A stretch of 64,000 bases of DNA. Origin: Eximiradius sp. GTDB lineage: Bacteria; Bacteroidota; Ignavibacteria; Kapaibacteriales; UBA2268. Where the stretch lies: assembly GCA_937127445.1 (NCBI GenBank), contig CAKZLY010000028.1, positions 1 through 64,000 on the forward strand, in the 5' to 3' direction. The notes below the pieces were generated by a model. It was not told where the DNA came from and did not search any database. It worked only from the letters and a program-made list of their open reading frames with translations. Numbering within the stretch: the first letter of the stretch is position 1; every line of letters starts with the position of its first letter. Below, one piece after another: positions 745 through 35,629 of the stretch. The position numbers and the translations under genes were made by a program.

Positions 745-1845
745 CTACTTTTCAAAAAACATGTTTACTAACTTTTGAAATGTTTCATTATCAACTTGTT
801 CTAAAATTGATTTATCAAAATTGATTGATAAATTTGTGAGTTCGGCTTTCAGTTTTTCACATTCGCTCTTAATATATTCGTTAGCTTCTTTTCCAAACAT
901 TGCTAATGAAACAATTTCTTTTATCCTGTCTGTTTCAATTTTACAAATCCAATTTTTGTAGGGGTTTTGATACAAATCTTCAAAGTTCTGTCTGATTTTG
1001 ACATTTGCACCAACAACCTTTAAACCGTTTAAATTCATATTGAAATAAATATCAAACGTATTTTTTTTAACAACAAACAAAGGATTTTCCTTCGACAAAG
1101 TAATATTTAAATTAGCAAAGTCAACCGTATCAATTATCCCTAACAATCTCATCGCAAAAGTGTCTAAACCAAAACGAATAAAGCCATTTTCTTCAATATA
1201 TCCCCAAATATGATTTTTTAGCAGGAAGTAACCAGCTGGAATATTTTCAGTTATCGAAGAAGTTTTTATTGACTTTTCAAGTTCTGATTTTATTTTTTCC
1301 CTTCTTTTCGAAAGATGTTTTCTTACAAAGTCATTTAAACGATTATCAACATAAGGTTTCTGAATAAAGTCAATTGCTCCCTCCTTGATTAAATCATAAG
1401 GGGTTGCCGAACTAACACTTTCAGTTATTATAATCACGTCAATATCGGGTCGTTTTTGCTTAATTCGATTAGTAAGTTCTTCACCTGAAATATCTCTTGT
1501 TTTTTCGCCTGTAAAAACAAAGTCATAATGATTTAACAAACATAGTTGATGTGCTTCCATTCCGCTTATAACTGAATCAACAGAATATCCATCTAAAACA
1601 AGCAAACTACGTAGTTTGTCTAATAATTCTTCATCTTTTTCAACAATTAATATGCGCGCTAATGGATTTTGAAGCTCAACCCTTTTGAGTGAACTTGAAA
1701 TATTTGAGTAATCTTTGGTCAAACTTTCTTTCAATGCTTTCTGACGATGCTCTCTAAGCTTCTTTTCAGATGCTTTCTTAACAACGGTTCTTATTAGAAC
1801 TTCAATAATGATTACTAAGATTATTACTGAAATTGTATATATCAT
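745..1845 (-). CDS. Membrane-anchored pseudo-receiver fused to GcvH-like domain
   Basis: A 366-residue protein. Residues 1-22 form one N-terminal membrane helix. Residues ~63-175 form a response-regulator receiver fold with the acidic pair region (EKDEE, 70-73) and the conserved Lys-Pro (K163-P164). The phosphoacceptor Asp is missing: alignment on D108 and G121 places Gly113 there. Residues ~204-305 resemble glycine cleavage H protein (HIWGYIEENG, FGLDTFAMRLLG, then NPYKNWICKIE matching the 'PY..GWL' ending). Lys261 falls where H protein is lipoylated, four residues before DIY, but the usual flanking residues are absent. The gene is last in the minus-strand redox cluster, 11 bp after the multihaem cytochrome. 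Inference: a scaffold or sensor subunit of that complex. It is unlikely to be a true GcvH, since no gcv genes are nearby. Confidence 0.75.
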   Translation of the reverse strand: MIYTISVIILVIIIEVLIRTVVKKASEKKLREHRQKALKESLTKDYSNISSSLKRVELQNPLARILIVEKDEELLDKLRSLLVLDGYSVDSVISGMEAHQLCLLNHYDFVFTGEKTRDISGEELTNRIKQKRPDIDVIIITESVSSATPYDLIKEGAIDFIQKPYVDNRLNDFVRKHLSKRREKIKSELEKSIKTSSITENIPAGYFLLKNHIWGYIEENGFIRFGLDTFAMRLLGIIDTVDFANLNITLSKENPLFVVKKNTFDIYFNMNLNGLKVVGANVKIRQNFEDLYQNPYKNWICKIETDRIKEIVSLAMFGKEANEYIKSECEKLKAELTNLSINFDKSILEQVDNETFQKLVNMFFEK

Positions 1846-1856
1846 AATAGTTCCCC

Positions 1857-3047
1857 TTATTTAGTAACTGATTTTCCAGGTTTTTGTTTAGGATAAGAGT
1901 AATTATCGTGGCAATCACTACAAACAGTTTTCTGAGCGAAATTTCTTGATGGGTGGCAACTTTCGCAATCTAATTCCTTATGAGTATCGTCTAAAATCAG
2001 TCCCGTACGTTTATGATTAAATTTTCCTGTTACAAAATCAGTATGGCAGGAAATGCAACTTGGATTAAGTTTGTTTGGTAAATTCATTACTGTATGGCAC
2101 TTATCACAAGGCAATTTTGAGTGGTGTTTTCCTAAATCAAAGCCTGTTAATTTGTGGTCAAACTTATCTTTTACTTCGTTCATATGGCATTTGTTACAAG
2201 AATTGTCTTTATGGCAGGTGATACAATTTTGATGAACGACTTCAAATGGCTGTCCCTTTAAATCGTGCTTTCTTGGTTTGTCGTAAGTTCTATCAACATC
2301 GTGGCACTTTGTGCATCTATCATTCTGATGACAAGTTTTGCAAGTAAGTCCAAAAAGCTTCACGTGTTCATCGTGATTAAAAGTTACCAATCGTCCGTTT
2401 TCAAAATTAGTTTCATAGATGATTTTAGGCTGAGAAACATATTCTGGATGAGTTTTACCAATTAGATTATTCATTTTTTTCTGAATATTTTCTTTTGTTT
2501 CTTTAGCAATTGGCAAATGGCAATAGGAACAATCGTTGGAATGGCTCCAATCTCTGTGACAACTGTAGCATTGACGGTGAAATGAAGCAGTTAAATCAGG
2601 ACGAGAAATATCTTTGCGTTTCCTTTCTTGTTTGTGGCAATTCTCGCATTTTTCAATCGGTCCAGCAATATTATAATGATGGCATCCATCGCAACCAATT
2701 GAAATATCTGCCATTTGAGCGTGAATAAGGTGTGAGAAAACTACTTTTCCATAACGTTTCCCATTATTATTCAGAATAACATATTCAGGACCTTCCTCTG
2801 GTTTATGTTCAATTGTAATCAATTCATTTCTTGGACAAGCAATTAAGCAAGGATTTTTCTTCGTTGGGAAATCGCAGCTATGACATCTTTTACACTCAAT
2901 TGGCAATCGTTGATGACCATCATTCGGCTTAACAATTATTTCTTTGGATTTATTGCCGGCTTTAGATTTTGGGATTTGATTTTGTCCAATAATAAAACCA
3001 CTCACTGCTATAAAAATAACAACAAATATTAAAGTTTTATTTTTCAT
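1857..3047 (-). CDS. 13-haem c-type cytochrome
   Basis: A 396-residue exported protein with an N-terminal signal/anchor helix (KTLIFVVIFIAVSGFIIG) and thirteen CxxCH haem-attachment motifs, some in closely spaced pairs (CYSCH/CSYCH, CKTCH/CTKCH, CITCH/CNKCH). Many extra His residues can act as distal ligands. The ATG at 3047 is chosen because GGAGA lies about seven bases upstream; the frame extends to a TTG at 3062 with no support. It lies 11 bp after the NrfD-like gene. Multihaem cytochromes in this position (as in the Hmc, Tmc and Nrf/Nhc families) exchange electrons with the membrane NrfD subunit on the periplasmic side. It does not look like NrfA nitrite reductase (no CxxCK) or octahaem hydroxylamine oxidoreductase, so an electron-wire role is most likely. 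Confidence 0.9.
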   Translation of the reverse strand: MKNKTLIFVVIFIAVSGFIIGQNQIPKSKAGNKSKEIIVKPNDGHQRLPIECKRCHSCDFPTKKNPCLIACPRNELITIEHKPEEGPEYVILNNNGKRYGKVVFSHLIHAQMADISIGCDGCHHYNIAGPIEKCENCHKQERKRKDISRPDLTASFHRQCYSCHRDWSHSNDCSYCHLPIAKETKENIQKKMNNLIGKTHPEYVSQPKIIYETNFENGRLVTFNHDEHVKLFGLTCKTCHQNDRCTKCHDVDRTYDKPRKHDLKGQPFEVVHQNCITCHKDNSCNKCHMNEVKDKFDHKLTGFDLGKHHSKLPCDKCHTVMNLPNKLNPSCISCHTDFVTGKFNHKRTGLILDDTHKELDCESCHPSRNFAQKTVCSDCHDNYSYPKQKPGKSVTK

Positions 3048-3058
3048 CTTTTGTCTCC

Positions 3059-4291
3059 TCAATGAATTGGATTAGTAAGTGTTCCCGGACTACTGCTATT
3101 TTCGGGTATGCTAATAATAGGGAATATCATAACAAAAGCTCTATATAAAAGTACTAAAAGTGCAATTAATCCAACAGTAACTGATATTTCACCAAAAGAT
3201 GGGAAATATGGAGATACAGAATAGGGTGGATGGTATGCAATAACAAAATTATTCAATCTGTTAATAAATACGCCAAAAACTACCAAAGTTGATGCAATAA
3301 ATAACCATAAAGGTGAATTCAATACTGCTCTTGACATAAACATTCTCAACGGGATTACCACTCCTAAAATAATCTCAATCATAAACATTACACTGTGAAT
3401 ATTAATCTCTGCCAAATAAACGTATGTTCCTCTTATAACCATATCTCCAATTTTGAAAGATAAATAGATAAATAGCAAAAGTGGCACTAATGAGCCGAGT
3501 CTTCTCAAGACAGGCATTTCTGGTTCTAATTTGAACGATCTTGAAGCAATTAGTGACTCGAATATTACCATTGGAAATCCAACAGCAATAGCAGACAAAA
3601 GGAATAATAGTGGCAGAATCGGGGTCTGCCAGAGCGGATGCATTTTGCTTCCAGCGATAATCATCAATGTGCCTAATGAAGACTGATGTAAAGTAGAGAG
3701 AACAACTCCCGCAATAAAGAAGATAAACATTACTTTTGATAATGTCTTGTCAAGTAACCTGAGTAATTTGTCTAATACTTTATTGAAAATTGATAAAATA
3801 CCTGGCAGATTGACTCTTCCGATAAAACGTTCAGTAACGATTGGGATAAATTCTATATAAAGTACTGTTAGGTATATCATAACGCATATACCAACTTCAA
3901 ATAATGCTGAATTAGGATTCCACATAATTAGTGGATGCCAAATATAATACCAACGGCCGATATCTATAAATACGCCCAAAGCAACAAAAGTATATCCAAG
4001 CATTGCTGTAAGTAATGCAGGACGAACAACAACATGATAATACTCACGGTTCATAACGTGACTCAAAGCTGCAGTTGTAAATCCACCTGCTGCTAATGCT
4101 ACTCCTGTTGCAACATCAATAGCAATCCAAATCCCCCAAGGATATTGCTGATTAAGATTCGTAACCGAACCAATCCCAAAAATAAACCTCATTGCAAGAA
4201 ATATCAACCCATTTAGCGCGAGTAAACACAAAATAATTACACCAGGGGTAAAAAATTTTATCTTTAATGGTTTTGGTAATAAACCTTCCAT
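3059..4291 (-). CDS. NrfD/PsrC-family quinone-interacting membrane subunit
   Basis: A 410-residue polytopic protein with about ten hydrophobic helices. It carries the NrfD-type sequence features NQQYPWGIWIAIDVATGVAL and AGGFTTAALSHV in the first helices. NrfD proteins hold the quinone site of many complexes (Hmc, Dsr, Psr, Act) and pass electrons to a ferredoxin-like subunit. The start is secure: AGGAGG ends five bases before the ATG at 4291. The gene follows the ferredoxin-like gene directly (nine bases between) and precedes the 13-haem cytochrome, the usual order of such complexes. The direction of electron flow (quinol oxidation or quinone reduction) cannot be read from sequence. Confidence 0.92.
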   Translation of the reverse strand: MEGLLPKPLKIKFFTPGVIILCLLALNGLIFLAMRFIFGIGSVTNLNQQYPWGIWIAIDVATGVALAAGGFTTAALSHVMNREYYHVVVRPALLTAMLGYTFVALGVFIDIGRWYYIWHPLIMWNPNSALFEVGICVMIYLTVLYIEFIPIVTERFIGRVNLPGILSIFNKVLDKLLRLLDKTLSKVMFIFFIAGVVLSTLHQSSLGTLMIIAGSKMHPLWQTPILPLLFLLSAIAVGFPMVIFESLIASRSFKLEPEMPVLRRLGSLVPLLLFIYLSFKIGDMVIRGTYVYLAEINIHSVMFMIEIILGVVIPLRMFMSRAVLNSPLWLFIASTLVVFGVFINRLNNFVIAYHPPYSVSPYFPSFGEISVTVGLIALLVLLYRAFVMIFPIISIPENSSSPGTLTNPIH

Positions 4292-4300
4292 TTTATCCTC

Positions 4301-5197
4301 CTATTCTTCTTCTAAATCTGAACGTTTTTTAGTGAGCCACATTATTCCACCAAGCAGTGAATAAAGCGCAATTGGCGGAACAAAGTAAGCAAAAATACCA
4401 TGTTGGATACTCTCTGATACACCAGGAGCAGGCGATAGTTTAAGTTTAGGCATTCCAAATTCCCACATTTTTTTGTTACCAATGTAAACCCACGAGGTTC
4501 CACCAACTTCTTTTTCCCCATAAATATAGTTTTCATACCTGTTAGGATATAAAGATATTCTTTCTTTTGCAAGTTGGATAATCTCATTTCGAGGACCATA
4601 TGTCATTACTTCCATTGGACAAATCTCAACACAGGCTGGCAACATACCTTGTTTTGTTCTCTCGATACAGAAATCGCATTTCATTATTCGCGGCTCAATT
4701 GCTTTATTATATTCAAAGGTCGGCACCTGGAACGGACAAGCAACCATACAATAGCGGCATCCTATGCATTTGCTCCCATCCCAAACAACACTTCCATTTT
4801 CGAATTTGCTAAATGCTCCAACGATACAAGCAGAAACACAAGCAGGATGGTCGCAGTGGTTGCATTGTGCTTTAACGAAAATCGGGGATAATTTGTTTTT
4901 TTGGTTTTCAAATTCATTGACTACTGTTAAAGCCGTTTCATCAGGACGTCTAAATTTTTTAAAAACACTACGGTCATGATAGTCATCAAGCTGCCCAGCT
5001 GGGATATTGTGTGCTTCTTTACAAGCCCACTCGCAATGGCGGCATCCGATACATACTGTTGTATCAACGAGTACCCCCATTCTTTCATCTGAGAGAATAT
5101 TCGTGGATGCTGAATCAGCATTCTGAGTGCTAACAGCAGCAACCGATGCAATTGCAGCTGCCTTTTTAAAAAAATTTCTTCGGTTTATCTTGTTCAT
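4301..5197 (-). CDS. Tat-exported HybA/DsrO-like 4x[4Fe-4S] ferredoxin subunit
   Basis: A 298-residue iron-sulfur protein. The N-terminus has a twin-arginine signal (NRRNFF, Arg6-Arg7, then an Ala-rich helix), so it is exported folded with its clusters. Four cysteine groups follow: CIGCRHCEWAC, CNHCDHPACVSAC, CIGCRYCMVAC and CDFC...CVEIC, enough for four [4Fe-4S] clusters. A single C-terminal helix (FVPPIALYSLLGG) anchors it to the membrane. The architecture matches HybA/HmcB/DsrO electron-transfer subunits, which sit on the periplasmic face of an NrfD protein. It is the first gene of the minus-strand cluster and reads away from the TonB receptor gene across a long AT-rich gap. Confidence 0.93.
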   Translation of the reverse strand: MNKINRRNFFKKAAAIASVAAVSTQNADSASTNILSDERMGVLVDTTVCIGCRHCEWACKEAHNIPAGQLDDYHDRSVFKKFRRPDETALTVVNEFENQKNKLSPIFVKAQCNHCDHPACVSACIVGAFSKFENGSVVWDGSKCIGCRYCMVACPFQVPTFEYNKAIEPRIMKCDFCIERTKQGMLPACVEICPMEVMTYGPRNEIIQLAKERISLYPNRYENYIYGEKEVGGTSWVYIGNKKMWEFGMPKLKLSPAPGVSESIQHGIFAYFVPPIALYSLLGGIMWLTKKRSDLEEE

Positions 5198-8311: not shown

Positions 8312-9862
8312 TTATTGAATCCTATCAATCCAAGATTGTGAAAAACCAAATTTCAATGCAGTTGCAGTAGCTTCCTCCATACTGCTGAAATACCCAAATC
8401 GTACTCGGTACCATTGACGATCGCGTACAATTTGTGGTGATATATATGCATCTATGTTATGTCTCATTTTTATTTCCCTAATCCAGTTTTTAGCATCTTC
8501 AAGGGAAGGAGTGGCATATACTTGGATTGTGTAAATTTCCTCCTTCGCAACTTTATTGTTATTTAACGCAATATCGTTAGCATTGGTTACATTTTTTTTA
8601 GCTACTGGAGAGATGTTTCTTTTTACCAGTAATGTTTTAGCTTCTTCTGAACGAACATTTGAAGCCATATTAAGTTTAGTTTCTTCAGGTTTATCTGGTT
8701 TTTGAGTTAGTTTTGTTTCTTTTTGGGTAATTTGACTGTCGATATTTTTGGGGACCGTTTGCTCATTATTTTCGGTTTTATCTGGTTCTTGAATTTCATG
8801 CTTTATTTGTTCTTTTGCTTTTGCCATTTCAGGAGTTTTTTGAGCCTCTACTGGTTTTGTGTCTTTAACTTGTTTAGGTATTTGTTTTTCCGAATGATCG
8901 CTAAACAATTTCGAACTAATAAGATTTATTCTTTGGTACCCAAAATTATCCCATATGTAATACAACGCGATTCCAGAAACAGCGAACAGCAAAAAAACAG
9001 CAGGATATTTTAATAAAGAGAAAAATGATATTTTTCTTATATGCTTATCTTTCTTTGTAGTTTGTTGTTCTTTCGACTTTTTACTTTTATTATCTATCTC
9101 ATTTAGGGGCTCGCTTAATGATTCATTGATTATTGTTCGAGAAGTATTATTAAAATTAATTGGAGGAACCCCAGTGTCTGGAATATTAGAAGGACTATCA
9201 GTATTGATATCGGATAGTATTAAAAATAAAGAAGGGTTATTTTCATCATCAAAAGACATATTATTTGTTTCTTCTTGATATTCTTCTTCAAAATTCTCGA
9301 TAGTTTCTTTTTTTTCTTTACTTTTCTTAATTTCTTTTTCTAATTCTTTGATAAATGCGCTATCAAGTTCTAAAGAAGATATACTTTCAGTATTTTCGCT
9401 TTCAGTTTCAAGATGTTCAGCTGCAGTAAATAATTGTTTGTATTCTTGTGGTTTTTCACTTGCTATTTCAACCTCGTCACCAAAAAGATACTCGCTCTCA
9501 GGTTGCTGTTCTTCAATTTCTTGCGTTTGATTTTGGCTTTCGGTATAAGCGGTTGAAAAAGCCTCTTCAATATTATCATTTTCTATATTTTCAGATACAA
9601 TCTGATCAGATGTTTGCTCTTGCTCGAATATATCCCAAATAGAACCTTTAGCAGGTGGTGCGAGTATTTCCTCTTGTGAAGGTAAACTTTCTTCTTGTAT
9701 CAGTTCAGTAGTTTCAGAATTTTCATTTTCATCATCGAAAGAAGGTACGGTTCCTGGATAATTCTGTTGCGTTGCGAGCAAAAAAGTATCATCATCGGGT
9801 TCACCAGGTGTAAATCCAGCATTTTCTTCGGATCTCAATATTTCAGAGAAAATTTGTTTCAT
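8312..9862 (-). CDS. SPOR-domain membrane protein with long acidic N-terminal region
   Basis: A 516-residue protein. About 270 N-terminal residues are very Glu/Asp/Ser-rich and low in complexity, probably disordered and cytoplasmic. One membrane helix follows (YPAVFLLFAVSGIALYYIW, near 285-305), then a Lys/Glu/Pro-rich linker, and finally a SPOR domain (EEIYTIQVYATPSLEDAKNWI to the end) that would bind peptidoglycan strands stripped of stem peptides. The layout recalls FtsN/DedD, but the large acidic cytoplasmic tail is unusual. Its ATG overlaps the stop of the upstream barrel gene (TAATG), so the two are translationally coupled. Confidence 0.82.
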   Translation of the reverse strand: MKQIFSEILRSEENAGFTPGEPDDDTFLLATQQNYPGTVPSFDDENENSETTELIQEESLPSQEEILAPPAKGSIWDIFEQEQTSDQIVSENIENDNIEEAFSTAYTESQNQTQEIEEQQPESEYLFGDEVEIASEKPQEYKQLFTAAEHLETESENTESISSLELDSAFIKELEKEIKKSKEKKETIENFEEEYQEETNNMSFDDENNPSLFLILSDINTDSPSNIPDTGVPPINFNNTSRTIINESLSEPLNEIDNKSKKSKEQQTTKKDKHIRKISFFSLLKYPAVFLLFAVSGIALYYIWDNFGYQRINLISSKLFSDHSEKQIPKQVKDTKPVEAQKTPEMAKAKEQIKHEIQEPDKTENNEQTVPKNIDSQITQKETKLTQKPDKPEETKLNMASNVRSEEAKTLLVKRNISPVAKKNVTNANDIALNNNKVAKEEIYTIQVYATPSLEDAKNWIREIKMRHNIDAYISPQIVRDRQWYRVRFGYFSSMEEATATALKFGFSQSWIDRIQ

Positions 9863-31422: not shown

Positions 31423-31857
31423 ATGCTTCCCAAAGATACAATAGACAAAATTATTTCAGCAGTTGAAAAATCTATATTGATTGTTATTATTTTATTTTTA
31501 ATTATTAGCTCCATTTTGTTGATTATTGAAGAAATCAACTCAATAATTTCGTTTTATGGTGAGAAACAGTCAATAAAAATAATCATTGAAATAATCAGCA
31601 AGACTCTTTTGCTTCTAATGATTATTGAAATATTAATAACAGTTAAAATTTCATTAACTGAGCATATTCTGTCCTGTCAACCATTTTTGATAATTGGACT
31701 TATTGCCGCAGTACGTAGAATTTTAATAATAAGTGTTGAAATTGCTTATGTTCACGATATGTTTAATCACTATATTATTGAAATGGGATTGTTAATCTTA
31801 TTAATCCTGATTTTTGTTATTGCCCTTGCAATTTTAAGAAAATACTCTATAAAATAG
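31423..31857 (+). CDS. PsiE-like small membrane protein
   Basis: A 144-residue protein with four hydrophobic helices. The pattern VEKSILIVIILFLI ... LLMIIEILITVK ... FLIIGLIAAVRRILIIS matches the PsiE (phosphate-starvation-inducible E) family, whose function is unknown. The ATG at 31423 is preferred to an in-frame GTG at 31414, which overlaps its probable AGGTG ribosome site. It is the first of three membrane genes closely spaced on the plus strand (eight bases to the next gene), so it is probably an accessory of the cytochrome system encoded after it. Confidence 0.72.
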   Translation: MLPKDTIDKIISAVEKSILIVIILFLIISSILLIIEEINSIISFYGEKQSIKIIIEIISKTLLLLMIIEILITVKISLTEHILSCQPFLIIGLIAAVRRILIISVEIAYVHDMFNHYIIEMGLLILLILIFVIALAILRKYSIK

Positions 31858-31865
31858 GAGGTATT

Positions 31866-32939
31866 ATGGATCCTAATCAACTTATTCCAAAACCAGATGC
31901 AATACCTGCTCCACCTTGGTTAATGATTTTACTCGAACAATTATTGTTTTTACTCCATATTTTAATTGTTAATGCTCTTTTAGGAAGTGCTCTAATTATT
32001 TTTTATCGTTGGTTTAAAAATCATAATAATGAAGAATTTTTTGAACTAAACAAACCTATTGCATCAAAAATTCCGGTAATGTTTGCATTAGGTATTAATC
32101 TTGGGGTTGCACCTTTACTTTTTTTGCAAGTTACTTTCGGGCATTTGTTTTATTCAAGTTCAGTTCTTATGGCAACGTATTGGATATTGGTTATTCCTTT
32201 TCTAATTATTGCATATTACGGCGCATATATTCATTACAAAAAAATGTCTAATAATCCTGGATTTGCAAAATTTTCAATTATCGTGTTGATATTGATGGTT
32301 TTTTATATTGCTTTTATGCTTGTTAATAACAATTCTTTGATGGAGCAGCCTGAAAAATGGGTAAAATACTTTGACAATCGTGATGGAACCATTTTGCTGG
32401 TATCCGATATATCAATTTATCCAAGGTTTTTAAAATTTGTTTTTGCTTCTATCGCAATTGGTGGTTTGTTTACAGCATTGTTATTTTATTTCAAAAAAGA
32501 TGTCTCCAATAAACAAGAGAAAATTAAACAGGGACTAAAAATTTTCGGCATTGCTACTGCAATACAAATGACAATTGGTTTTATATATTTGTTTACTCTT
32601 CCCGAAGACATTATGCTAAAATTAATCGGTAGAGACTTACTAAGCTCAATAATATTATTAATCGGAATTATTGCTGCAATTGGAGCATTAACATTTGCTT
32701 TTCAGGGGAAATTATTTGCAACCTTATATCATCTTTTGCTTACAATGATTGCTATGGTAATTACACGCTATTTATTAAGAATGATGTATTTGAACGATAA
32801 TTTTTCTTTAAGCTCTTTACATATAGAATCCCAATGGATGATATTTGCATTATTTGTAGTTATTCTTCTAATCGGTTTATATTCAGTTTGGTATATGATT
32901 AGATTAGGTTTTGCAAATAATTCAGGGAGGACAGAATAA
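31866..32939 (+). CDS. Polytopic membrane protein paired with the bd-like multihaem cytochrome
   Basis: A 357-residue protein with about nine membrane helices. I do not recognise a named family. A His in the first helix (LLEQLLFLLHILIVNALLG) and its spacing echo the first helix of the next gene (AIISILHVYISHLAVGGG), so the two may be distant paralogues arranged as a pseudo-symmetric pair like CydA/CydB. Other conserved-looking elements are GINLGVAPLLFLQVTFGHLFYSS and FVFASIAIGGLFTALLFYF. GGAGG precedes the ATG with five bases spacing, and the stop overlaps the next start (TAATG). Probably an integral subunit that may bind haem b and quinol; this is inference. Confidence 0.7.
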   Translation: MDPNQLIPKPDAIPAPPWLMILLEQLLFLLHILIVNALLGSALIIFYRWFKNHNNEEFFELNKPIASKIPVMFALGINLGVAPLLFLQVTFGHLFYSSSVLMATYWILVIPFLIIAYYGAYIHYKKMSNNPGFAKFSIIVLILMVFYIAFMLVNNNSLMEQPEKWVKYFDNRDGTILLVSDISIYPRFLKFVFASIAIGGLFTALLFYFKKDVSNKQEKIKQGLKIFGIATAIQMTIGFIYLFTLPEDIMLKLIGRDLLSSIILLIGIIAAIGALTFAFQGKLFATLYHLLLTMIAMVITRYLLRMMYLNDNFSLSSLHIESQWMIFALFVVILLIGLYSVWYMIRLGFANNSGRTE

Positions 32940-35629
32940 TGAACTATCCAATATGGGAATTGTATTACCTGAATTCAGGTACATTAGTCGCGATTATTTC
33001 AATATTGCACGTCTATATTTCGCATCTGGCTGTGGGTGGGGGTTTCTTTTTATGGTACACCGACAGAAAAAGCATAAAAGAGAACAATTTGGAATTGAGA
33101 GAATACGTTAAAAAACACACCTGGTTCTTTCTCTTGTTAACAATGGTATTCGGTGGCGTTACAGGAGTTGGGATATGGTTTATTATAGCACTTGCAAATC
33201 CAGCAGCAACTTCATCATTAATACATACTTTTGTATTTGGGTGGGCTATTGAATGGGTATTTTTCGTTGGAGAAATCACTGCTCTCTTAATTTACCATTA
33301 CCGTTTTGATAAAATGACCGATAAGGATAGGCTTAAAATAGCATTTCTTTACTTTTTGTTTGCCTGGCTAAGTTTGTTCATCATCAATGGTATACTTACG
33401 TATATGCTAACTCCAGGCAGTTGGCTTGAAAATAAATCTTTCTGGTCTGGCTTTTTCAACCCTACTTATTTTCCTTCTTTACTTTTCAGAACATCTGTTA
33501 TGGCTCTTGTTGCTGGACTATTTGGGCTGATTACGGCTGTATTTATGAAATACAATGAATTCCGGATTTATCTTATAAAGTATTGTTCAAAATGGTTGCT
33601 TTACTCTTTTCCATTTATGATTATTTTTGGCTTATGGTATTTTTATTCTATTCCTGAAAATACACGTTTTACTAATTTCGTTCTTAATCAGCAAATGATG
33701 AGCGTTGTTTCTATATTGTTAGTATCTACTGCATTATTATTCTTTCTCGCCTTGTTTTTTATTATTCGTTCAAAGCCTGCACTACAAAAAATTATGGTAT
33801 TTCTTCTTCTTATTATTGGTCTTGGATGGTTTTCTGGATTTGAATATGTTCGCGAATATGCTCGAAAACCATATATAATCCACGGATATATGTACTCAAC
33901 TTCAATTTATGTTCAAGATGAAGAAAAATTAAATAATGAAGGAATTTTAGCACACGCCAAATGGTCTTCAATTAAAAAAATAACCGATGAAAATAAAATT
34001 GCCGCCGGAAGAGAAATATTTAATATTCAATGTCTATCTTGCCATACAATTAATGGAATAAAGAATGATGTTGTAAATAAGTTCAAGAGCTTAGCTTATG
34101 TCGGAATAATGTCTCAAATCTATGGTCAAGGAAAAGTTCTCAATTATATGCCTAAATTTATTGGGACACGAGATGAACTTGAAGCATTGGCTTTATTTAT
34201 TGCAAAAGATTTACTCGGCAAAGAAATAATTACTGAACTTTCCACCAAAAGACCTAATCCAGTTGAGCTGGATATTCCTGCTTTTGATCCACAAAAAGAT
34301 GAATACGTCCTCTTGGCTTGGAACGATATCGGTATGAAATGCATTACCGATAATTACAAAATGTTTATGTTTCTACCACCAGGTAATATTTTAGAAGCGT
34401 TACTTATTAAAAGAGATGCTTTTCCAATAATTGTTTCAAAAGGTGTAGAAATTCAATACGAAGTAGAACCAGGATTTGAAAATCCATCAAAATTTATTGA
34501 ATTTTGGAAATATTCTGAAGCCTATTATGGTAAGAAAATTTCAGACAATATTGGGACAACCGGGAATGGCTTAAAAGGCAAATTTATTTGGGATGAAAAA
34601 GAGAGAAAATTTGTAGCAAAAGGAATTCCTGTAGTACCATATAAAGATGATGGCAGTTATAATCCGTATCCAAGATTCAAGGTTAAAGCAGTAGATGTTG
34701 CCACTGGAAAAGTACTAAAAGAGACAAAAGTTGTTGCCCCTGTTTCTTCTGAAATGGGATGTCGCTTATGTCACGATGGTGGCTGGCGGGTAAATAACTT
34801 GTCAGGTCTTGCTGACGAAACTGCCGCGAATATTTTATCCACTCATGATAGGCTTAATAAAACCCAACTTCTCAAATCTGCGTTGGAAGGTAAGCCTGTT
34901 ATGTGTCAAAGTTGCCATCCTGATCCACTTGTTAAATCTGATGGTTTACCTGGTCATAACAGTTTTTCGGCTTCTATGCACGGTTGGCATGCAAATTATA
35001 TGGTTATCGATGGTCCGAAAGCCTGTGTCACTTGTCATCCAAGTAGTTCTACTGGTAATACACAATGTAGCCGAGATATTCATTCTCTTGTTGGTTTAAA
35101 TTGCACAAGTTGCCACGGAAATATTGATGATCACGCTGCTTCTCTTTTAAAATATGAATTTAAAAATAATACGAGTGCAAAACGTCTTGCTGCTAATCTA
35201 AAATTGAAACAAGTAAACTCAATTGATGAAATTAATGCAAGAAAATCGTGGCACCAATTGCCTGATTGTATGAATTGCCACGAAGGTTATGAACAACCCA
35301 AAGCTAATTTTAAAAGCTTCAACAAATGGGTAGCATCTGCTTCTGATTTATATAAAAATCGGCGAGATGATAGAGGACGTGTGCAGTGCGTCGCTTGCCA
35401 TAATTCACCTCATGCCATTTATCCCACAAAGAATATTGTTAATCCTAATCATGATAATATTCAGCCCTGGCAATATCAGAAAAACCCGTATCCAATAGGC
35501 ACAAATAACAATTGCGTTATTTGTCATAAAATTGATATGAAAATGTTAAAACATCATCCAAATATGGACAAACCATTTAGAAACGTTCAATTAGTTGAAA
35601 AGCACGGTTTATTACAAGTTAAGAAGTAA
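32939..35629 (+). CDS. Cytochrome bd-like membrane core fused to eight-haem cytochrome c
   Basis: An 896-residue fusion. Residues 1-~320 form about nine membrane helices. Parts recall cytochrome bd subunit I: GGVTGVGIWFIIA, the acidic GWAIEWVFFVGEITALL helix, and YVREYARKPYIIHGYMYS, like the quinol-site 'R..GRQPW..yG' of CydA. Residues ~350-430 form a single-haem cytochrome c domain (CLSCH at 365, Met in NYMPKF). The rest is periplasmic with seven more CxxCH motifs, from CRLCH (608) and CQSCH (656) to CVICH near the end. A direct path from membrane quinol to a chain of periplasmic haems is implied. It overlaps the previous gene by one base and is followed by a strong terminator. The bd relationship is by motif only, so homology is suggestive and not proven. 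Confidence 0.85.
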   Translation: MNYPIWELYYLNSGTLVAIISILHVYISHLAVGGGFFLWYTDRKSIKENNLELREYVKKHTWFFLLLTMVFGGVTGVGIWFIIALANPAATSSLIHTFVFGWAIEWVFFVGEITALLIYHYRFDKMTDKDRLKIAFLYFLFAWLSLFIINGILTYMLTPGSWLENKSFWSGFFNPTYFPSLLFRTSVMALVAGLFGLITAVFMKYNEFRIYLIKYCSKWLLYSFPFMIIFGLWYFYSIPENTRFTNFVLNQQMMSVVSILLVSTALLFFLALFFIIRSKPALQKIMVFLLLIIGLGWFSGFEYVREYARKPYIIHGYMYSTSIYVQDEEKLNNEGILAHAKWSSIKKITDENKIAAGREIFNIQCLSCHTINGIKNDVVNKFKSLAYVGIMSQIYGQGKVLNYMPKFIGTRDELEALALFIAKDLLGKEIITELSTKRPNPVELDIPAFDPQKDEYVLLAWNDIGMKCITDNYKMFMFLPPGNILEALLIKRDAFPIIVSKGVEIQYEVEPGFENPSKFIEFWKYSEAYYGKKISDNIGTTGNGLKGKFIWDEKERKFVAKGIPVVPYKDDGSYNPYPRFKVKAVDVATGKVLKETKVVAPVSSEMGCRLCHDGGWRVNNLSGLADETAANILSTHDRLNKTQLLKSALEGKPVMCQSCHPDPLVKSDGLPGHNSFSASMHGWHANYMVIDGPKACVTCHPSSSTGNTQCSRDIHSLVGLNCTSCHGNIDDHAASLLKYEFKNNTSAKRLAANLKLKQVNSIDEINARKSWHQLPDCMNCHEGYEQPKANFKSFNKWVASASDLYKNRRDDRGRVQCVACHNSPHAIYPTKNIVNPNHDNIQPWQYQKNPYPIGTNNNCVICHKIDMKMLKHHPNMDKPFRNVQLVEKHGLLQVKK

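Follow-up and report, generated by a model that had tools for sequence, protein, structure and literature searches.

The window analysed here, a stretch of 64,000 nucleotides from contig CAKZLY010000028.1 of Eximiradius sp. (host genome of 2.45 Mb, 99% complete), carries on its plus strand three linked genes followed by one terminator-like hairpin, as an earlier note on this DNA had described (Table 1). The first gene encodes a PsiE-family protein and may start at ATG 31423 or at GTG 31414, with its stop at 31857. The second and third, called P2 and P3 in the following, have overlapping reading frames (TAATG), and the pair that they form is our main subject. The closest relative of P3 lies on a Candidatus Kapabacteria contig and is 74% identical over the full length and 79% across the first part.

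Table 1. Features of the P2–P3 locus, in window positions; CydA residue numbers stand for the aligned residues of canonical CydA.
Feature	Position	Strand	Remark
PsiE-family small membrane protein	31423..31857	+	PF06146, E=1.2e-7, above cutoff
P2, 357 aa, predicted nine-helix partner subunit with CydA fold (CydA'-like)	31866..32939	+	
P2 Lys190 codon, at the position of CydA b558 ligand His186	32433..32435	+	His in 44/45 octahaem partners
P3, 896 aa, a fusion of four parts: CydA-like membrane domain, c domain with one haem, beta domain, domain with seven haems	32939..35629	+	
P3 residues 7-322, CydA-like domain; eight predicted helices matching CydA TM1-8, without Q-loop and TM9	32957..33904	+	
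P3 His24 (haem d ligand His19)	33008..33010	+	kept in all aligned c-haem-bearing relatives save one mis-framed start
P3 Glu105 and Glu112 (Glu99 and Glu107; oxygen site, proton path)	33251..33274	+	Glu in all c-haem-bearing relatives
P3 Glu306 and Arg309 (haem b595 ligand Glu445 and Arg448)	33854..33865	+	invariant; profile alignments
Class I monohaem cytochrome c domain, C365xxC368H369, conserved axial Met404	33995..34201	+	PF13442
Haem-free, mostly beta-strand domain between c domain and heptahaem part	34256..34756	+	model secondary structure
Multihaem domain with seven CxxCH	34760..35557	+	PF14522, PF22113
Intrinsic-terminator-like hairpin, single, 3' of P3	35660..35685	+	

Judged by profiles and a structural model, the membrane domain of P3 is a true homologue of cytochrome bd subunit I. 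Profile–profile comparison with canonical CydA (hhalign) gave 98.8% with E=8e-17 in local and 99.4% in global alignment, and a profile search of the PDB with P3 found Geobacillus CydA (5doq_A, E=2.8e-10). PF01654 matches 28 of 45 octahaem P3 homologues (best 2.6e-15) and, with values up to 9e-21, short-form relatives with one or two CxxCH. Taken as single sequences, the membrane part of the window's P3 and P2 went unrecognised by Pfam, NCBIfam and PDB; recognition came through homologues and profiles. The AlphaFold model of P3 (pLDDT 88) shows eight membrane helices, one fewer than the roughly nine previously counted, and fits CydA 7ose_A (VIA) with Z 29.5 and an rmsd of 3.0 over 313 residues; for CydA chains overall, Z is about 28–29.5 (2.7–3.6 Å, 308–315 residues). 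The next-best structural group, alternative complex III, lies far below at a Z of about 18. Both lines of evidence bear out the bd-like core that had been suspected. An identity as a quinol dehydrogenase of the NapC/NrfH or CbcL type was rejected, with one weak NapC match among 45 members in Pfam; the many weak NrfH matches in NCBIfam stay far below the family cutoffs and reflect the haem motifs.

P2, on the same kinds of evidence, is a second, non-catalytic protein of CydA fold. A Pfam search had no match and its profile found nothing in the PDB; its model (pLDDT 93) has nine membrane helices, the number given in the earlier note, and the best structural match is CydA (7ose_A; VIA) with Z 27.0 and an rmsd of 3.6 over 338 residues. 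By hhalign, P2 matches CydA at 95.5% (E=1.6e-8) and CydB at 15.7%, and P3 at 98.2% (E=3e-14, 282 columns), so that the echo once noticed between the first helices of the two proteins is a matter of real homology. An identity as CydB is excluded by these profile values; since CydA and CydB folds are alike, this distinction rests on sequence. The catalytic Glu residues are absent from P2, which is therefore likely a partner subunit.

The roles of CydA residues as haem ligands or parts of the proton path are established, Glu445 being a ligand of haem b595 (PMC8585947, PMC8324918). The P3 stretch REYARKPYIIHGY, previously read as a look-alike of the quinol loop, aligns instead with the CydA GRQPW motif that bears this ligand, and REYARKPYIIHGYMYS aligns with CydA GWxxAEVGRQPWIVYGIMRT, which makes it evidence for an oxygen site and not for quinol binding. 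P3 has equivalents of His19, Glu99, Glu107 and Glu445, the residues by which the bd superfamily is recognised. Of the proton path, Ser139 is matched by Ser145 (S or T in 40 of the 40 checked), and the position of His125 holds Arg131, with His in 31 of 40. Across about 72 aligned c-haem-bearing relatives from genome contigs, and in c-haem-bearing phylum relatives, all oxygen-site ligands are kept, the mis-framed start of Table 1 excepted.

The quinol site has fared differently. Alignment and model show no counterpart in P3 of the Q-loop, which in CydA lies between TM6 and TM7. Phe183, next to the invariant Arg184, takes the position of the haem b558 ligand His186, and the seventh helix holds no conserved His or Met that could stand for the b558 ligand Met393. 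With the Q-loop and the b558 His both missing, P3 no longer has the classical quinol site. The His at the b558 position of P2, replaced by Lys190 in the window, is also lost in relatives whose operons contain Rieske and cytochrome b genes.

Eight CxxCH motifs were counted in P3 (residues 365, 608, 656, 696, 722, 777, 817 and 859), one in a class I c domain and seven beyond it, just as had been reported from the first inspection. Extra His residues of the tail are invariant (H636, H681, H684, H715, H825, H872 and H873) or nearly so (H732), which suggests bis-His ligation of the tail haems. The tail also occurs in other arrangements. Stand-alone cytochromes of 474–480 aa with five CxxCH, resembling P3 from about residue 447, are present in three loci (L047, L048, L049), and the one scanned, from L047, has a T9SS sorting domain. 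P3 stops directly after the monohaem domain in five Desulfobulbales P2–P3 loci (L219, L225, L234, L237, L242), three of which have an in-frame stop within the match, a natural loss of the tail. A split form, with two CxxCH in P3 and six in a separate 264-aa frame, was seen in L114, and among L114, L217, L230 and L241 there are also shortened P3 forms of 585–671 aa with 3 or 4 CxxCH.

A scan of 84,980 species returned 364 relatives, of which the best 80 loci were examined. Exactly eight CxxCH are present in 52 P3 genes. P2 lies directly upstream in 44 of the 52, from at least six phyla, overlapping P3 by 4 bases in 32 and by 1 base in 10 of these pairs; five of the eight loci without it are at contig ends. 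PsiE, present in 6 of 52, is ruled out as a core subunit, and thus the three-gene unit envisaged in the earlier note persists as the P2–P3 pair alone. Octahaem carriers belong to Bacteroidota, Thermodesulfovibrio, Calditrichota, KSB1, Verrucomicrobiota, Gemmatimonadota and Desulfobulbaceae, and the P3 family at large to Bacteroidota, Calditrichota, KSB1, Nitrospirota, Verrucomicrobiota and others; carriers of the pair span many phyla and are mostly anaerobes. Desulfobulbales was sampled with 243 genomes, and a close P3 relative turned up in at least 108 of them; most of the frames are 840–1000 aa long, and most of the 30 loci examined have P2 adjoining an eight-CxxCH P3. Features conserved in tens of genomes and many phyla are far beyond chance.

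In a deep tree of 223 columns, P2 and P3 together (support 99) are sister to the CydA-like pairs of Nitrospirota, with a joint node of 93, apart from canonical CydA. Support is 100 for P2 and low (32) for the monophyly of P3; the octahaem P3 form a single clade (100), which indicates that the fusion arose once and spread. The Nitrospirota genomes have their CydA-like pairs with genes for Rieske, cytochrome b and monohaem c proteins in between, an arrangement that matches the published Nitrospira cluster of bd-like_1, bd-like_2 and complex III (PMC6606698).

Nature has also provided variants that lack the c haem. Four Bacteroidota relatives of P3 (L044, L045, L211, L212) have lost CxxCH, and in 4 of 4 the equivalents of His24, Glu105, Glu306 and Arg309 are gone too, with Glu112, Arg184, Glu302 and Arg305 remaining. 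All four are from one family, and the co-loss may be a single event. As the c haem and the oxygen-site ligands were lost together, the two appear to act together. Retention of P2–P3 beside Rieske and cytochrome b in this lineage would suit a non-catalytic membrane module that merely anchors periplasmic cytochromes or wires them to another complex. However, such an anchor leaves unexplained why c-haem-bearing members from different phyla hardly vary in their catalytic residues, and we consider this role very improbable.

Gene neighbourhoods bear on the direction of electron flow. Relatives other than the octahaem forms have one or two CxxCH, with P2 downstream. Two Bacteroidota families have the order P2, Rieske, cytochrome b, P3, and no Rieske or cytochrome b gene was found within the octahaem loci examined. 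The earlier note had proposed oxidation of quinol by the bd-like core, with the c haems carrying the electrons out to acceptors in the periplasm or outside the cell and no oxygen chemistry. Several features would suit such a complex: the Rieske and cytochrome b genes in operons of relatives, the c haems on the periplasmic side, a heptahaem domain akin to those of MtrC/MtrF and of T9SS-tailed cytochromes, the anaerobic life of many carriers and the His usually kept in P2. Schemes drawn for cable bacteria likewise have electrons reaching the periplasm by way of Rieske, CytB and the CydA homologue (PMC12093952). The octahaem loci, however, have neither gene, P3 has neither Q-loop nor b558 His, P2 of the window has Lys190, and a quinol dehydrogenase would have no need of the oxygen-site and proton-path residues that are kept, the ligands being lost together with the c haem. 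Since the quinol site is lost, the oxygen-site ligands and proton-path Ser are retained and the ligands disappear with the c haem, transfer from c haem to O2 is more likely than from quinol to c haem; the proposed direction is disfavoured, its reverse is favoured, and we regard the quinol-to-c complex as unlikely.

Other neighbours raise the question of the substrate. In five Desulfobulbaceae loci P2–P3 is arranged divergently to a group made up of an Rrf2 regulator gene and canonical cydAB, and in L125 (Desulfogranum japonicum) P3 is followed by an NnrU-like gene (8852–9469), which may point to NO metabolism. NO and iron–sulfur damage are signals that regulators of the Rrf2 family often sense, and bd enzymes handle NO and peroxide. 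With the same direction of electron flow, P2–P3 could on these grounds be a detoxifying reductase of NO or peroxide and not of O2. The active-site set, however, is that of bd oxidases and the Rrf2 gene of those five loci adjoins canonical cydAB as well, for which reasons we hold this substrate to be quite unlikely. Separately, four loci (L146, L147, L152, L034) have two tandem monohaem P3 genes and one P2, then a ZIP-like transporter gene (identified in L034); the tandem genes of L034 stand beside cbb3 oxidase genes.

Taken together, the profile homology, the conserved residues, the predicted folds, the co-loss, the cydAB genes divergent from P2–P3 in the five Desulfobulbaceae loci and the place in the tree beside the Nitrospirota pairs, which have been proposed as c-type terminal oxidases (PMC6606698, PMC10839748), lead us to propose that P2–P3 is a two-subunit relative of cytochrome bd that probably acts as an oxygen reductase fed by cytochrome c. 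The tail of P3, with its seven haems, would receive electrons from multihaem cytochromes of the periplasm or perhaps the cell surface and hand them to the His/Met c haem (Met404) next to the membrane. The last station would be a bd-type active site, where Glu306 and His24 would hold the equivalents of haems b595 and d. O2 would be reduced to water at this site with cytoplasmic protons arriving via Glu112, Ser145 and Glu105, and P2 would serve as a non-catalytic partner of CydA' type, as CydB or CydA' do elsewhere in bd enzymes. An order from low-potential bis-His haems through a high-potential His/Met haem to an oxygen site would be energetically sensible for an oxidase, whose role may be oxygen removal or micro-oxic respiration. 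No haem-copper oxidase is present in 17 of 28 sampled octahaem genomes, and a metagenome-assembled genome of Thermodesulfovibrio (G436) has no haem-copper oxidase, no canonical CydB and no PF01654 match.

Several observations weigh against an oxygen reductase. Canonical CydB is already present in 26 of the 28 sampled genomes. The Rieske and cytochrome b genes that share operons with P3 relatives would fit a quinol-to-c complex equally, and the persistence of P2–P3 beside them in the lineage without c haem or active site makes a non-oxidase role of the fold possible. Moreover, sequence is no guide to which of O2, NO and peroxide is the substrate, or to the presence of haem d.

If the proposed oxygen reductase is real, it would be fed by low-potential multihaem cytochromes with no quinol step, its c haem tied to the bd active site by a natural co-loss. 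It would then account for the disposal of O2 by anaerobes that have electron wires in the periplasm, and would be a definite candidate for the step, still debated, at which relatives of cable bacteria reduce oxygen. More tentatively, we hypothesize that P2–P3 represents a distinct and widespread bd branch, an oxygen-reducing core hard-wired to an octahaem conduit, through which anaerobes might remove or respire O2 with electrons taken straight from periplasmic or extracellular multihaem wires and with quinol bypassed; in Desulfobulbales the pair, or its monohaem relative, could be the terminal oxidase that seems to be missing from cable bacteria. A minus-strand module elsewhere in the window (748–5197), with a 13-CxxCH cytochrome (1860–3062), NrfD (3062–4291) and an FeS protein (4304–5197), is of Qrc/Cbc type and could supply a periplasmic multihaem pool.

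Like canonical cytochrome bd, P2–P3 has a two-subunit membrane core, and P3 shares with CydAB the CydA fold, the haem d His, Glu99/Glu107, Glu445/Arg448 and the proton-path Ser equivalents. Unlike CydAB (qOR), P3 has no Q-loop, b558 His186 or TM9 and is fused to eight c haems, and its partner is CydA-like and not CydB by sequence. Another point of comparison is the CydAA' (OR-N) bd-like oxidases of Nitrospirota and Nitrospinota, for which use of cytochrome c has been proposed (PMC10839748, PMC12342949, PMC6606698) and whose manner of working P2–P3 would share: they, too, have two CydA homologues, an Arg conserved close to the position of His186, c cytochromes in the vicinity and, as in relatives of P2–P3, operons with Rieske and cytochrome b. 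A pair of CydA homologues without a quinol site is the trait of OR-N and OR-C, and P2–P3 shows it. P3 differs in keeping Glu99, a Tyr in most Nitrospirota CydA-like proteins, and in carrying c haems in the same chain together with an octahaem tail.

In cable bacteria an orphan CydA homologue has been reported (PMC10030654, PMC12093952, PMC11247825), and a 2026 paper proposes that this homologue, with its periplasmic c domain, may reduce O2 (PMC13047784), which would agree with the role proposed here for P3. As described there, the protein resembles P3 as a CydA-like protein with a periplasmic c domain, accompanied by Rieske and CytB in Desulfobulbaceae, and is set apart by a c domain with no octahaem tail and no P2 partner named. 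Neither the octahaem fusion nor P2 turned up in the literature searched, from which most subscription journals were absent. The heptahaem part of P3 has domain-level similarity to MtrC/MtrF-type and class III/C7 cytochromes (PF22113, PF14522), which, unlike P3, have no bd membrane domain and occur as soluble or outer-membrane proteins. The bd-type core is of a known kind, and it is the octahaem fusion of P3 that appears to be new.

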